In this document: one piece after another, positions 28,611 through 34,558 of the stretch
Position numbering within the stretch: the first letter of the stretch is position 1
Layout: every line of letters begins with the position of its first letter
Assembly: GCA_022448315.1 (NCBI GenBank)
Contig: JAKVCA010000029.1
Location: forward strand, 1-64,000
Direction: 5' to 3'
Origin: Pirellulaceae bacterium
GTDB lineage: Bacteria; Planctomycetota; Planctomycetia; Pirellulales; Pirellulaceae
DNA: 64,000 nt
Translations under genes and position numbers: made by a program
Notes under the pieces: model-generated
The model's database searches: none
The model's input: only the letters and a program-made list of their open reading frames with translations
Told to the model about the DNA's origin: nothing

Positions 28611-29519
28611 TTATTCTGTGGCTTGAAATGGCTCACCGTCGACTTTGATCCGAGGTGTTGCTGCCGATTGGATGGTCGGCGCGGCAGGGTCATCGACAAG
28701 GTCGCATTGGTCAATCGTCACACGGCAGTAGTCGCTGCAGTGAACCTGAGCTTTGCCGTTGTTTCCAATCAGGCATGCTTCAATTTTGACCCGAGAAGCA
28801 CCACCAATGTGCATGCCGCTACGGCCATTTCCCCGAAGCGTGCAACCCAGCACCGTGGCATCGAAGACGTTGTCATGGGCATTGATGCCGTCGAGTTGGA
28901 AGCCCTGTATCGTGAGGTCTTCAATCACGACGCCTCGAACATTGTAGAGCGTCATGCCGACGGGTTGGCCACAGTACGTCAGATCGTAGTACTGGGGCAG
29001 GCGATCTTCCTCAGCACAAAAATAGATACGTCCATCAAGCAGAGTCCATTCCATCGGTTGAAGCTCGTCCAACTGCTCCATCTCGTCGCATACCACTCGA
29101 GCAAGTGGTTTTCCTTGATGATACAGTTGCTGATACGTCAACAGGTGGGGCTTGAAGGAGAACACCGTTTTCGTGGCATGTTCCCAGGCCCCGTCATCGA
29201 TGAGGCTGGTGCCATCAATCATGGCATTGTTGCCTTGAATCCGGAATGGGGTGATCCCGTTGCTGCTGTGTTTTGAGCCCTGCAATGTCAGGCTTTCTCG
29301 GTAAGGTTCATTCGTGTTGGCGACCACGATGGTGTCGCCGGCGGTCGCCGCCTTCAACGCTCGCGTGATGGATCGCATCGGACCCACCCTGGGACCTCTT
29401 TGTTCGGCAGTCAAACCATTGTTCGTATCGCTTCCGGTCTTATTGTTGACATAGAGGTCGGTCGCGGATGCGGAGACCTGAAACAAGACCAATACCAACA
29501 GCGATGCAAAAAATCTCAT
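28611..29519 (-). CDS. Secreted right-handed beta-helix protein
   Basis: A 302-residue protein with a signal peptide (residues 1-19, SASA just before the mature part) followed by the DLYVNNKTGSDTNNGLT opening and the GPMRSITRALKAATAGDTIVV block typical of planctomycete pectate-lyase-like parallel beta-helix proteins. Short repeats at the C-terminal half (VVIEDLTIQGF, DATVLGCTLRGNG, RVKIEACLIGNNG, RVTIDQCDLV) are helix coils. It probably binds or cleaves a polysaccharide, in keeping with the sulfatase and epimerase genes of the window; no catalytic residues can be assigned. It is alone on its transcript as far as spacing shows. Confidence 0.85.
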   Translation of the reverse strand: MRFFASLLVLVLFQVSASATDLYVNNKTGSDTNNGLTAEQRGPRVGPMRSITRALKAATAGDTIVVANTNEPYRESLTLQGSKHSSNGITPFRIQGNNAMIDGTSLIDDGAWEHATKTVFSFKPHLLTYQQLYHQGKPLARVVCDEMEQLDELQPMEWTLLDGRIYFCAEEDRLPQYYDLTYCGQPVGMTLYNVRGVVIEDLTIQGFQLDGINAHDNVFDATVLGCTLRGNGRSGMHIGGASRVKIEACLIGNNGKAQVHCSDYCRVTIDQCDLVDDPAAPTIQSAATPRIKVDGEPFQATE

Positions 29520-30074: not shown

Positions 30075-31409
30075 ATGGATTACCGTCAGACACTGATCAA
30101 GCGGATGGTGAATCTGCTTCAGCCCGAGGCGAACCAAATTCTCAACATGTCTTACGATGAGGCGTTGGAGTGTGTGGGAAGTGGTGTGCCGGAAAAAGTG
30201 CGGGCGATTGACGGGCAGTTTGCGATTGTTCACAAACAGGGGACGGTCATCCGTATGGCAAGGTCGATTGGGCGTCCGATGCGGTTTTTCCTTGCGAAAA
30301 AGGCGGAAGGACCGTTGCTCGTCGTTGCCGAGCGGATGGAGGAGATTCGTGATTACCTTGAAACGGAGGGAATCGGGGAACAGTTCCATCCCTCCTATAC
30401 GCGAATGGTTCCCGCGCATTACATCATGGAACTGGCGCTAGTCGGTTGTCCTGACCCCAATCCGGTGTGTACCCGATTTTTAGAATCCCATCGCGACCAG
30501 CTTCCAACCGATCTCGACGTGATTGGGGAACGTTACATCTCGGCAGTTTCCAGGGAGTTGGATGGTTGGCTGGATACCGTGGATCCCAAGGAACCTTTAG
30601 GGGTCATGTTTTCAGGAGGCATTGATAGTGGGGCCATCCTCCTGCTGCTCTATGACCGATTGTTGAAGCGTGGAGAGTCGCCTCAGCGTCTGAAAGCGTT
30701 CACGCTTTGTGTGGAGGAGAGCGGCGAAGACTTGAGTCAGGCGAGCGACTTTCTGAAGGCCGTTGATCTCGATATGTTTCTCGAAGCCATCCACGTGAGC
30801 CGTGAGGATCTTGATATATCCGAAACCATTCGGGTGATCGAAGACTACAAACCCTTGGATGTTCAATCGGCCACCATGGGCCTCGCGCTCTGTCGCGGGA
30901 TTCGGAAACGTTATCCCGATTGGAAATATCTTCTCGATGGAGATGGTGGCGATGAAAACTTGCGTGACTATCCGATCGAAGAAAATCCAGAACTGACGAT
31001 TCGAAGCGTCTTGAGTAACCCGTTTTTCTACCATGAGGGCTGGGGGGTCGAGGCTGTCAAGCACTCGTTGACCTATTCGGGCGGTCAGAGTCGCGGGCAC
31101 GTCCGGACCTCGGCGCCTGCATCGACAGAAGGGTTTGCTGGGTTTAGCCCGTTTGCGACTCCGAACGTGATTGATGTTGCCGAGGGCATTCCCTTTGTGG
31201 CCCTCACGGACTGGGATCACCAGAAGCTTTATGACCTGAAGGGAGAGATTACGCGGCGGGGCGTGGAATCGTTGACGGGGATCACGATGCCGATTTTCGA
31301 GAAAAGACGGTTTCAACGTGGTGCCGTCGGGAACTCCGGTTTTGCGGAGATTTTCCCTGAGGACGAATCAGCCTATCGAGCTCTATTTTCCAAGGTCTTT
31401 TCAAACTGA
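30075..31409 (+). CDS. Asparagine-synthetase-like ATPase with degenerate amidotransferase half
   Basis: A 444-residue cytosolic protein. The C-terminal two thirds is an asparagine synthetase-type PP-loop (N-type ATP pyrophosphatase) domain with SGGIDSG at residues 180-186 and the LLDGDGGDEN block about 120 residues later. The N-terminal 110 residues look like the second half of a class II glutamine amidotransferase domain (DGQFAIVHKQG...GPLLVVAERMEEI), but the N-terminal Cys nucleophile is missing, so glutamine hydrolysis is unlikely. It would activate a carboxylate or amide with ATP. Strong AGGAG precedes the ATG. The TGA overlaps the ATG of the radical SAM gene by one base, so the two are translationally coupled and probably act on one substrate. 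A canonical asparagine synthetase role is unlikely given length (about 520-620 usual) and the lost glutaminase. Confidence 0.85.
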   Translation: MDYRQTLIKRMVNLLQPEANQILNMSYDEALECVGSGVPEKVRAIDGQFAIVHKQGTVIRMARSIGRPMRFFLAKKAEGPLLVVAERMEEIRDYLETEGIGEQFHPSYTRMVPAHYIMELALVGCPDPNPVCTRFLESHRDQLPTDLDVIGERYISAVSRELDGWLDTVDPKEPLGVMFSGGIDSGAILLLLYDRLLKRGESPQRLKAFTLCVEESGEDLSQASDFLKAVDLDMFLEAIHVSREDLDISETIRVIEDYKPLDVQSATMGLALCRGIRKRYPDWKYLLDGDGGDENLRDYPIEENPELTIRSVLSNPFFYHEGWGVEAVKHSLTYSGGQSRGHVRTSAPASTEGFAGFSPFATPNVIDVAEGIPFVALTDWDHQKLYDLKGEITRRGVESLTGITMPIFEKRRFQRGAVGNSGFAEIFPEDESAYRALFSKVFSN

Positions 31410-32371
31410 TGGATGTTCGTCGTGAGAGAGGCAGCACCTTTCATATCGATGATCAGTCTGTGCTCGACCTGAGAGGCCCAAAAAACACGGTTGACCCTTG
31501 GAAGCCTTACCACATCTTGGCTGAGGAGGAGTACAGCCGCCATCGCAAGTTGGAGACGGTGCTGACGGTCTTCCTGACGAATCAGGAATGCCCGCTTCGT
31601 TGCACGATGTGCGACCTTTGGAAAAACACGCTCGATTCGACCGTGCCTATTGGGGCCATCCCCGCCCAGATTGAATTAGCGCTCTCACAGCTTCCGAACG
31701 CGAAAAAGATCAAACTCTACAACAGTGGTAATTTCTTCGATCCGAAGGCAATCCCGACGGCAGATTACGATCCGATTTTGAGTCGGCTCGATGATTTTGA
31801 TACCCTCATTGTCGAAAATCATCCCAAGTTCTGCGGTACCCGCTGTATCGACTTTCAAGCGCGATCCGGCGGTCGACTCGAGGTCGCGATGGGACTCGAG
31901 ACTCATGAACCCGCGATCTTGAGAAAACTCAACAAGAAGATGGATCTTGATGACTTTGACGCAGCAGTCGAAAAGCTGCTGGATGCAGAGATCACGGTTC
32001 GAGCTTTTGTGCTGCTGCAGCCCCCCTTCATGGCACCCGAAGCGGCGGTCGATTCATGCTTGGCTACTTTGGAACACGCCTTCTCCATTGGGGTGGATTG
32101 TTGTGCCGTGATTCCGACTCGCGGCGGGAATGGCATGATGGAGAAGATCAAGGGTTCCGTCGGATTTGAGCCGCCGGAACTCTTCAAAGTCGAGGCGGTA
32201 GCGGATACGGCCTACCGTTGGAACCGAGGCCGTGTGCTCGTCGATCTATGGGATATCGAATCGGTTTCAAAGTGTGAAAGTTGTTGTCTGGCGCGCGTCG
32301 CGCGACTTCAGGCCATGAACGAAACTCAAAGGTGGCTGGAACCGATTGCATGTGACGAATGCGGTTCGTAG
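31409..32371 (+). CDS. Radical SAM protein of Elp3/RaSEA-like type, coupled to the ATPase
   Basis: A 320-residue radical SAM enzyme. The [4Fe-4S] cluster motif is C61-x3-C65-x2-C68 (CPLRCTMC) following the strand LTVFLTN. The next conserved stretch, IKLYNSGNFFD, resembles Elp3-like and archaeosine-type (RaSEA, TIGR01210) radical SAM proteins. AMGLETHEPAILRKLNK, the FVLLQPPF strand and PTRGGNG complete the barrel. The C-terminus has further cysteines, C289-x2-C292-C293 and C315-x2-C318, suggesting an extra zinc or iron-sulfur site. It overlaps the asparagine-synthetase-like gene. I infer a joint modification of an RNA base or small molecule; no tRNA-modification partner such as tgt or queC is in the window. 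Radical SAM identity is secure, function is not. Confidence 0.88.
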   Translation: MDVRRERGSTFHIDDQSVLDLRGPKNTVDPWKPYHILAEEEYSRHRKLETVLTVFLTNQECPLRCTMCDLWKNTLDSTVPIGAIPAQIELALSQLPNAKKIKLYNSGNFFDPKAIPTADYDPILSRLDDFDTLIVENHPKFCGTRCIDFQARSGGRLEVAMGLETHEPAILRKLNKKMDLDDFDAAVEKLLDAEITVRAFVLLQPPFMAPEAAVDSCLATLEHAFSIGVDCCAVIPTRGGNGMMEKIKGSVGFEPPELFKVEAVADTAYRWNRGRVLVDLWDIESVSKCESCCLARVARLQAMNETQRWLEPIACDECGS

Positions 32372-32509: not shown

Positions 32510-34558
32510 ATGATGCTGAAGCGTTTTTCCAAAAGCAGCAACCTGTTTGTTGCGTTGATCCTCATGGGGGGGCCCGTCGCTTCAGAACTTCCTGGAGAGA
32601 CACTGAAAGCCTTGCTCGAACCCTTGATTCGAAACCATCGTGGCGAAGTGTCGGTCATGGTTCAACACCCGGCGAGCGGCGAGGAATACAGCTGGCAGGC
32701 GGATACGCCTCGACCCGCGGCAAGCTTGATTAAGGTGGCGACCATGGTTACCGCGTACCAATTTGCCGACCGCGATAGACTCGATCTCGATCAAGCCGTG
32801 GTGCTAAACGATCAGGATAAAGTACCCGGGTCTGGGGTCCTCACCGAGAACTTTACGGCTGGGTTGCAGATTTCAGTGCGGGATCTGATCCGTTTGATGA
32901 TTCGCTACTCGGATAACACAGCGACGAACCTTGTCGTTGATCAAATCGGGCTGCCCAGCACAACGCAGGCGATGGATACGATTGGACTAACAAATACCAG
33001 GTTGCATTCCAAAGTTCATCGTGGCTCGGAGAGCATTGCTCCGGAACGAAGTCAAAGGTTCGGGCTTGGTAGTACAACGGCTCGTGAGACGGTTGCCTTG
33101 CTCAAGGCCGTGTTGAATGAGGAGGCAGCAAAAGCCGAGTCCTGCGCGGCGATGATCGAGCATCTGATGTGTTGCGAAGATGACACCATGTTGGCCCGAA
33201 AGCTTCCGCCAAGTTTCAAGTTTGCTCATAAAAGTGGGGCGATTAGCCACTCCAGATGTGATGCTGGGATCATGATGTTCAAGGATGGGCCCGTTTTGAT
33301 ATGTGTGCTGACGACGAACAACGAGGATAAAAGCTGGACAGATGACAACGAAGCCCAATTACTTTGCGCGGAGATCGGACGTCTTGTCTACGACCATTTT
33401 CAAACTGACAGCGGAGATGAGGGGGAAACGCAGACGGAAGTGCTACAACGCGGAGCAATCGGATCGTCCGTCGAAATGCTGCAGCGTACCCTGAACTCCC
33501 GTCTCGAACCTTCGCCCAACCTTTCCGTTGATGGAGACTTTGGGCCGGCGACCGAAGCGGCCGTAAAACAGTTTCAATTCGATGCTGGGGTGCCTGTGAC
33601 GGGGCGAGTGGATCGTGCGTTCTGGGCTCGGCTCGGTCCCGTCGTGCCGTCGGTTGAGGTCGAAAAACCTGACGTGGTCAATGGCCGCGTCTTGCCAAAA
33701 GCCGAACGTGATGCACTGAAGGGATTGCCATTCGTGACTTGCCCTTCCTGGATCATTTGCGACGGAGATACGGGGCGCCCGCTTTGGCAGGCAAACGCAA
33801 ATGATGCTCGCCATACTGCGAGTACCACAAAAATCATGACCGCATGGCTCGTGCTCAAGGCGGGCGAAGAAAATCCGGAGATCTTCGGAGAACAAATTTT
33901 ATTTTCAAGGAGGGCGGATGAAACTCCGGGTTCAACCTCCGGACTCAAGGAGGGGGAGAGTGTCAGTGTCAAAGAGGCGCTTTATGGCTTGCTCTTGCCT
34001 TCGGGCAACGACATGAGCGTCGCGTTGGCGGAACATTTTGGTAAAAGGTTCGTCATGTCGGAGCAATTGCAAAACGTCGATGAGTTGGATCCCGTTCAAG
34101 CGTTTGTCATGGCGATGAATCAGGAAGCGAAGCGTTTGGAGATGGACTCGACAACGTATACCAATCCTCATGGTCTGTCAGAAAAAGACCATCTCTCGAC
34201 GGCTGGGGATCTTGCGAAACTCGCCTTCACGGCCTTGGGAAACCCCATGTTTGCAGACTATGTATCGACGCGAGAGCGGGGCGTCGTGGTGCGGGGTAGC
34301 TCTGGCTACCAGAGAAATGTGATTTGGAAAAACACCAACCAGCTTCTCGCCATCCAAGGATATGAAGGGGTCAAAACGGGAACGACGTCCAAGGCGGGGG
34401 CTTGTCTTGCCTCGGTTTGCTTTCGAGAAGATCGGAAGTTGTTATTGGTGGTCCTCGGTTCCTCGTCGTCCTCGAGTCGGTATACCGATAGCCGAAATCT
34501 CTACCGCTGGGCATGGTTGAATCTGACGGGCTTCAATGACGAAATGGGAGACCATTGA
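32510..34558 (+). CDS. Beta-lactamase-like / PG-binding / DD-carboxypeptidase fusion
   Basis: A 682-residue exported protein with a signal peptide (about residues 1-25) and three modules. The first (about 30-300) is a class A beta-lactamase-like serine hydrolase with SLIK at 72-75, SDN at 134-136 and KSG at 241-243; the Glu166-type omega-loop motif is not clearly conserved. The second (about 310-380) is a peptidoglycan-binding PG_binding_1 repeat (VDGDFGPATEAAVKQFQ). The third (about 405-670) is an S11 D-alanyl-D-alanine carboxypeptidase with STTK at 438-441, SGN at 498-500 and KTG at 622-624. Each catalytic triad appears intact, so two penicilloyl-serine active sites may sit on one peptidoglycan-bound chain. 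S11 enzymes trim stem peptides. The N-terminal unit could be an esterase, transpeptidase or beta-lactamase. The gene stands alone between divergent and convergent neighbours. Confidence 0.88.
   Translation: MMLKRFSKSSNLFVALILMGGPVASELPGETLKALLEPLIRNHRGEVSVMVQHPASGEEYSWQADTPRPAASLIKVATMVTAYQFADRDRLDLDQAVVLNDQDKVPGSGVLTENFTAGLQISVRDLIRLMIRYSDNTATNLVVDQIGLPSTTQAMDTIGLTNTRLHSKVHRGSESIAPERSQRFGLGSTTARETVALLKAVLNEEAAKAESCAAMIEHLMCCEDDTMLARKLPPSFKFAHKSGAISHSRCDAGIMMFKDGPVLICVLTTNNEDKSWTDDNEAQLLCAEIGRLVYDHFQTDSGDEGETQTEVLQRGAIGSSVEMLQRTLNSRLEPSPNLSVDGDFGPATEAAVKQFQFDAGVPVTGRVDRAFWARLGPVVPSVEVEKPDVVNGRVLPKAERDALKGLPFVTCPSWIICDGDTGRPLWQANANDARHTASTTKIMTAWLVLKAGEENPEIFGEQILFSRRADETPGSTSGLKEGESVSVKEALYGLLLPSGNDMSVALAEHFGKRFVMSEQLQNVDELDPVQAFVMAMNQEAKRLEMDSTTYTNPHGLSEKDHLSTAGDLAKLAFTALGNPMFADYVSTRERGVVVRGSSGYQRNVIWKNTNQLLAIQGYEGVKTGTTSKAGACLASVCFREDRKLLLVVLGSSSSSSRYTDSRNLYRWAWLNLTGFNDEMGDH

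Follow-up and report, generated by a model that had tools for sequence, protein, structure and literature searches.

In archaeosine formation a transfer enzyme, ArcS, is paired with the radical S-adenosylmethionine (SAM) enzyme RaSEA, which converts preQ0-Lys in transfer RNA (tRNA) to archaeosine (PMC11298593). The queuine lyase QueL regenerates preQ1 from queuine (PMC11570991). Asparagine-synthetase (AS)-like enzymes act on peptides in C-terminal amidation, nitrilation and lasso closure (PMC13060819), and the K87A variant of the halogenase PltM is inactive (PMC6424973). Here we describe relatives of these enzymes that are encoded together in a Pirellulaceae bacterium. Two of the genes, an AS-like ATPase gene (ASN) and a radical SAM gene (RSAM), adjoin each other in a 64,000-nucleotide stretch of contig JAKVCA010000029.1 (the whole stretch analysed, hereafter the window), and the third, a halogenase-like gene (FAD), lies on another contig of the same genome. 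The trio is a cassette that recurs as a unit in distant bacterial groups. We see about an even chance that its three enzymes make or modify one compound without other dedicated neighbours. The features on which the comparison rests are as follows.

30075..31409, plus strand: ASN, an asparagine-synthetase/beta-lactam-synthetase-like ATPase of 444 residues with a degenerate N-terminal amidotransferase domain lacking the catalytic Cys (open reading frame (ORF), profile and model).
30612..30632, plus strand: PP-loop SGGIDSG, ASN residues 180-186 (sequence; SGG[IV]DSG in 129/129 family members).
31409..32371, plus strand: RSAM, a RaSEA/queuine-lyase-like radical SAM protein of 320 residues, its start sharing one base with the ASN stop (ORF, profile and model).
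31589..31612, plus strand: CxxxCxxC [4Fe-4S] motif, RSAM C61, C65 and C68 (invariant in 25 aligned sequences and in 90/90 non-redundant members).
31718..31741, plus strand: YNSGNFFD motif, RSAM residues 104-111, aligning with NSGSFFE of queuine lyase (alignment; YN-type motif in 90/90).
32273..32362, plus strand: RSAM C-terminal cysteine region, C289, C292, C293, C315 and C318, with Zn-ribbon-like spacing (translation; pattern C-x2-C...C-x1-3-C in 73/90).
G000:C64:37528-39036 (the window's own genome, other contig), minus strand: FAD, a flavin-dependent-halogenase-like protein of ~500 residues (profile search).

Base 31409 is common to the ASN stop codon TGA (31407-31409) and the RSAM start codon ATG (31409-31411). 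The original prediction, made from the window alone, had described this TGATG overlap, the intact PP-loop of the first gene and the CxxxCxxC cluster plus five further C-terminal cysteines of the second, and each was found as described. It had also presented the pair as a two-enzyme system isolated from other biosynthetic genes. That picture was incomplete: the pair looked isolated in the window because FAD sits on another contig, and most relatives carry FAD alongside, so that a three-gene set replaces the two-enzyme system.

The three genes were counted in a sample of 117 related genomes (105 genera). Of these, 42 had RSAM (41 with a strong match) and 47 had ASN (43 strong), and FAD was strong in 43; weak ASN matches (G003, G009, G024 and G038), a weak RSAM match (G024) and FAD matches weaker than 1e-40 were left uncounted as present. 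ASN and RSAM were both strong in 40 genomes. All three genes occurred in 38 genomes, none in 71 and a mixture in 8 (FAD only in G009 and G064; ASN and FAD in G056 and G109; ASN and RSAM in G063 and G075; RSAM and FAD in G014; ASN only in G036), and pairwise Fisher tests of presence, uncorrected for relatedness, gave p values of 5e-24 to 1e-26.

ASN is followed by a neighbouring RSAM on the same strand in 31 of the 40 genomes that have both (29 of the 39 neighbourhoods L032-L070, the window and G071), at a distance of <=150 bases in 28 and of 0.3-0.9 kb in three (L049, L069 and L037); in the other nine the two genes are present but apart. Clustering of the ORFs of neighbourhoods L032-L070 placed FAD in 26 of these 39: in 25 it comes directly after RSAM on the downstream side, and in L045 it lies divergently beside ASN. 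Where the genes sit together, the pairwise distances of the three proteins correlate (r 0.76 to 0.80), the pattern to be expected if the genes are passed on jointly, by inheritance or by transfer. The adjacency of ASN and RSAM is conserved among planctomycete relatives, and no match placed them in a characterised pathway, which leaves standing the original view of an undescribed system.

The cassette extends beyond the planctomycetes. When named genomes were scanned with the ASN alignment, the best 80 loci of a longer list were mostly from planctomycetes (including Rhodopirellula rubra and bins under the names Gimesia, Fuerstiella and Schlesneria). The others included the complete Roseithermus sacchariphilus chromosome and metagenome bins labelled Acidobacteria, Pyrinomonadaceae, Bacteroidetes and Rhodothermales, although bins can be mislabelled. 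ASN was present in 13/294 sampled genomes of the window's phylum, all in the window's class, and in 25/117 sampled genomes of the Roseithermus class. At 23 of these last 25 loci, that of the complete R. sacchariphilus chromosome included, ASN, RSAM and FAD follow in that order on one strand; of the two exceptions, L221 reaches the contig edge after RSAM, and L235 shows no FAD in the remaining 1.7 kb of its contig. No match to ASN was detected among 72,556 plasmid records.

For the motif counts, identical-core, short or stop-containing sequences were dropped (ASN from 146 to 129, RSAM from 108 to 90 and FAD from 82 to 71), and identical-core FAD sequences were dropped before the Lys alignment (from 70 to 63). 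A FAD profile built from 14 members matched PltM first in the PDB (E 2.8e-73, 250 bits) and then the tetracycline 7-halogenase CtcP (5.5e-71, 243 bits), and the peptidyl-tryptophan dihydroxylase QhpG followed at 1.1e-7 (34 bits). PltM Lys87 lies in CGIKLGFSF (chain index 107), the motif that a mutagenesis primer in PMC6424973 also spells, and aligns with GxKRGFSY of FAD. The Lys is conserved in 63/63 aligned sequences and in 71/71 by motif; a narrow motif pattern missed the FAD proteins of L084 and L100, and the alignment column is nevertheless Lys in all 63. FAD is homologous to PltM and the tetracycline 7-halogenase across ~400 residues, with the catalytic Lys kept. It differs from them in lacking the IP of GWxWxIP, and no conserved polyketide-type neighbours were seen at FAD loci. 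Judged from these sequence features, FAD is probably a halogenase.

ASN belongs to the asparagine synthase superfamily (PF00733, 53.3 bits against a cut-off of 21, E 4.4e-14). With TIGR01536, the asparagine synthetase model, it scores 38.8 bits, far short of the cut-off of 267.1. It is unusually conserved, with 57-74% identity to 21 aligned relatives; a DG[DE]GGDE block is kept in 128/129 non-redundant members, and an FxKxRFQ-type pattern was not found in 16/129. Its AlphaFold model (mean predicted local distance difference test score (pLDDT) 81) matches beta-lactam synthetase (Z 22.8 over 357 residues, root-mean-square deviation (rmsd) 3.3), human ASNS (Z 22.6) and AsnB (Z 22.2). These alignments begin at ASN residue 5-9, which corresponds to residue 37-44 of AsnB, human ASNS and beta-lactam synthetase. 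In class II amidotransferases the nucleophilic Cys of the glutaminase is located in the N-terminal segment, so the segment that bears it is absent from ASN. A Met-Cys near the N-terminus, as in glutamine-hydrolysing AS, was found in 0/129 non-redundant members. The half-sized amidotransferase domain without an N-terminal Cys was thus fairly described from the sequence, but GAT-QueC, mentioned at the same time, is not the closest relationship, as ASN is asparagine-synthetase/beta-lactam-synthetase-like. As a member of its superfamily, ASN would be expected to adenylate a carboxylate, which ammonia or an amine would then attack.

Nearly the whole-length fold (Z 19-23) and the PP-loop are common to ASN, the beta-lactam and carbapenam synthetases and AsnB. 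In contrast to these enzymes, to which it is 11-19% identical, ASN lacks roughly the first 30-40 amidotransferase residues and has a family-specific conserved block around GDGGDENLxDYPIEENPELTIRSVL. The nitrile synthetase PesC and other AS-like peptide enzymes are, like ASN, asparagine-synthetase-like enzymes recruited into a modification pathway (PMC13060819). PesC, however, is proposed to draw on glutamine-derived ammonia and has a peptide precursor as its substrate, whereas ASN has no glutaminase Cys and no precursor was found near it.

The best named model for RSAM is TIGR01210 (RaSEA, NCBIfam), which matches 25/25 RSAM members; for the window's protein the match (E 3.1e-26, 92.3 bits) stays below the cut-off of 212.15, so that the hidden Markov model comparison bore out a relationship to RaSEA but not membership. 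RSAM is less conserved than ASN (31-52% identity to 24 relatives). Besides the patterns given above, E[NT]H occurs in 82/90 and GLE in 78/90 members. The C-terminal cysteine pattern is missing in the divergent members of L062, L068 and L070, and these cysteines are therefore more likely to be structural than catalytic. In a search with the RSAM model (pLDDT 94), VIA-align ranked queuine lyase first (Z 18.0, rmsd 3.2, 218 residues), followed by biotin synthase, Elp3, MqnE, NifB and HydE at Z ~16. In the Foldseek comparison RSAM also resembled the protein-modifying enzymes MgmA and Mmp10. When the RSAM sequence profile was compared with the PDB, queuine lyase was the sole match below 0.01 (E 8.5e-5), with only profile positions 45-180 aligning.

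In alignment with QueL (PDB 6p78), the NSGxFF, ExH and G[LI]ET motifs are shared, but RSAM has the additional C-terminal cysteine region and the partners ASN and FAD. ASN and RSAM resemble ArcS and RaSEA in their logic, a radical SAM enzyme working alongside a transfer enzyme, yet the partner of RSAM is an asparagine-synthetase-like ATPase rather than the TGT-like ArcS, the third gene is halogenase-like and the system is bacterial. On profile and predicted fold, RSAM is a distant relative of RaSEA and probably of queuine lyase. Both of these are radical enzymes with deazaguanine derivatives as substrates and are taken to act at a C-N bond, and by analogy RSAM may also be a C-N lyase.

We propose the following scheme, in which the reactions, their order and the substrate are deduced from the gene content, conservation, co-occurrence, predicted folds and motifs described above. 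FAD would use FADH2 and O2 to form hypohalite, delivered by the conserved Lys to an electron-rich aromatic ring (or would hydroxylate it). ASN would use ATP at its PP-loop to adenylate a carboxylate and join it to ammonia or an amine; this nitrogen would not come from a glutaminase site of its own, because the nucleophile is absent. With SAM and its [4Fe-4S] cluster, RSAM would form a radical by which the product is cleaved or rearranged; a C-N bond is the most likely site, and the carbon part of the amine joined by ASN would perhaps be removed. The cassette stands alone, and the starting compound is therefore probably a common cell metabolite. The earlier idea of a carboxylate or nucleobase that is activated and then radical-modified is reasonable in its order, given the kinship of RSAM with RaSEA and queuine lyase, but a tRNA nucleobase looks improbable as the substrate. 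A narrower version, which we offer tentatively and consider rather unlikely, is a non-tRNA bacterial counterpart of the ArcS/RaSEA logic: ASN would couple a halogenated-aromatic carboxylate to a carbon-bearing amine donor, chosen because ASN has no glutaminase site, and RSAM would cleave the donor C-N bond to leave a primary amide.

If the genes served deazaguanine or tRNA modification, ASN would act like ArcS or QueC and RSAM like RaSEA, as the TIGR01210 matches throughout the RSAM family and the ranking of queuine lyase in both structure and profile comparisons would suggest. The RaSEA cut-off of TIGR01210, however, was reached in 0/5 genomes (best 112.2 bits), while 3/14 control genomes reached it, and no second TGT-like paralogue (PF01702) was found in the 7/7 triad genomes, each with a single TGT locus, by a model that may not catch every ArcS; two PF01702 matches in G406 are adjacent pieces of one locus. 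These results reject membership in RaSEA or archaeosine formation, with which the original prediction had compared the pair. Matches to QueC over the cut-off occur in 116/117 relatives, and such near-universal presence is uninformative about a coupling to de novo deazaguanine synthesis. The triad-bearing genomes G005, G070 and G043 have weak QueC matches only (best E 2.6e-4, 2.2e-4 and 4.8e-10), which speaks weakly against that coupling, as salvage or assembly gaps could explain them. With a halogenase-like partner, the substrate would more plausibly be aromatic than a nucleobase in tRNA, and we know of no tRNA role for such a partner. We consider a tRNA function quite improbable. Maturation of a peptide or protein, as in ribosomally synthesized and post-translationally modified peptides (RiPPs), is unlikely in our estimate, though less so. 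Here FAD would hydroxylate or halogenate an aromatic residue, RSAM would cross-link or cleave, and ASN would amidate or cyclise the C-terminus, a use for which the peptide-directed AS-like enzymes give precedent (PMC13060819). The resemblance of RSAM to MgmA and Mmp10 fits this reading, as do sub-threshold matches of FAD to QhpG, GoxB and LodB, whose target is Trp within a protein (PMC7876137). Nevertheless, FAD is far closer in the PDB to PltM and CtcP than to QhpG, among the clusters seen, no protease, transporter or substrate protein is a neighbour of general conservation, and no RiPP precursor candidate emerged from the 12 largest small-ORF clusters within 900 bases of the genes; the largest of these clusters is the ASN start itself, and the others look like frames that overlap known genes or run antisense to them.

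Several observations count against a single pathway or against the activities assigned within it. The co-occurrence count ignores the relatedness of the 117 genomes. ASN stands alone locally in 46/156 fetched loci (a redundant set, with some loci cut by contig ends and partners possibly elsewhere), and G036 carries ASN only; ASN may thus have an independent role, and the ASN-alone loci reflect partly short contigs, partly scattered genes and perhaps some copies that stand alone. Together with the nine relatives in which ASN and RSAM lie apart, this would suit three enzymes with separate routine jobs (ASN might simply be an ammonia-dependent asparagine synthetase) whose linkage is historical. 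That explanation appears very improbable to us, set against 38 complete and 8 mixed genomes, a gene order kept in a distant class and the low TIGR01536 score of ASN. In the ASN model, residues 295-339 are of low confidence, and they lie within the most conserved block of the protein. Foldseek puts Elp3 first for the RSAM model. In sequence RSAM is weakly similar to queuine lyase, and in the structural ranking other radical SAM folds come within 2 Z units of queuine lyase. GWxWxIP is a motif of flavin-dependent halogenases, and FAD keeps half of it: GWxW is present, but other residues stand in place of IP (the A3 consensus, from 14 sequences, reads GWMWQLRF). The NCBIfam matches of FAD are sub-threshold, namely QhpG (67 bits, cut-off 240), GoxB, LodB and the CmlS halogenase (60 bits, cut-off 900). 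With the half-kept motif and these hydroxylase and maturase matches, aromatic hydroxylation by FAD is possible, and we regard it as clearly the less likely of the two activities.

Divergent ASN copies without RSAM alongside (G028:C1:5381676-5382977, G412:C1:7155722-7157035 and G036:C5:476673-477971) hint at a second role of ASN. A fatty-acyl-AMP-ligase protein of ~1150 residues lies divergently beside ASN in L069 (12908-16363), L081, L094, L097, L167, L171 and L178, and in L097 (G028) it adjoins a second ASN copy. This fatty-acyl-AMP-ligase/acyl carrier protein (ACP)/aminotransferase (oxoamine-synthase-like) protein was rejected as a member, since a full or partial match occurs in 117/117 relatives and it is not specific. 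A Zn-ribbon/acyl-carrier-like ORF of 120 codons lies between ASN and RSAM in L069 (L069:10682-11041, minus strand); it was likewise set aside, as 110/117 genomes match it, mostly by the ACP half, and the dozen or so genomes with matches across both halves include some that have the triad and some that lack it. ASN-containing frames of at least 900 codons (L131, L143 and L168) look like upstream read-through rather than fusions.

No generally conserved fourth neighbour was found in the clustered neighbourhoods, and, the three genes aside, no neighbour family occurs in more than 5 of the 25 Roseithermus-class loci. In the 39 neighbourhoods and the window, the other recurrent families are c5 (15 loci) and c7 (12 loci), which we take to be generic planctomycete proteins, and clusters c3, c4 and c6 appear to consist of antisense frames of the three genes. 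An inverted gene of ~500 codons between ASN and RSAM in the Roseithermus-class loci L216, L217, L220 and L221, whose product resembles an outer-membrane capsule-assembly protein, is not part of the unit. Two families recur near the cassette in 5/25 Roseithermus-class loci (L215, L218, L220, L221 and L224); by their look we take them to be a sugar kinase and a sugar isomerase. For ASN, RSAM and FAD, 0 PADLOC families of anti-phage defence matched at E 0.01.

In the window, the next gene downstream of the pair (32510-34558, plus strand) encodes an unusual-looking fusion of class A beta-lactamase, peptidoglycan-binding and S11 D-Ala-D-Ala carboxypeptidase domains (682 residues). Upstream (28611-29519, minus strand) lies a beta-helix gene, a 58% identical copy of which is found just past RSAM in L048 (G017; L048:7196-8023). 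When seven window proteins were compared with 40 loci, the beta-helix protein was the sole match besides ASN and RSAM.

The enzyme families of the cassette are known. A search of open-licence literature (planctomycete, Rhodopirellula and Rhodothermaeota topics with halogenase, radical SAM and asparagine synthase) returned no description of the trio, and within that literature the conserved ASN-RSAM-FAD combination is without precedent. It is a compact, testable three-enzyme set, found in planctomycetes and in the distant Roseithermus class, where one example lies on a complete chromosome. Being so small, the set could be expressed as a whole in a laboratory strain to look for its product. Through RSAM, it also offers a bacterial enzyme related to RaSEA and, probably, to queuine lyase. 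To our knowledge, few natural products are known from planctomycetes, and the cassette predicts a halogenated (or hydroxylated) amide-type metabolite in these bacteria. If the radical-amidation version of the scheme is true, a widespread cassette would use a two-step amidation, radical in its chemistry and free of any glutaminase, for a so far undescribed halogenated molecule.

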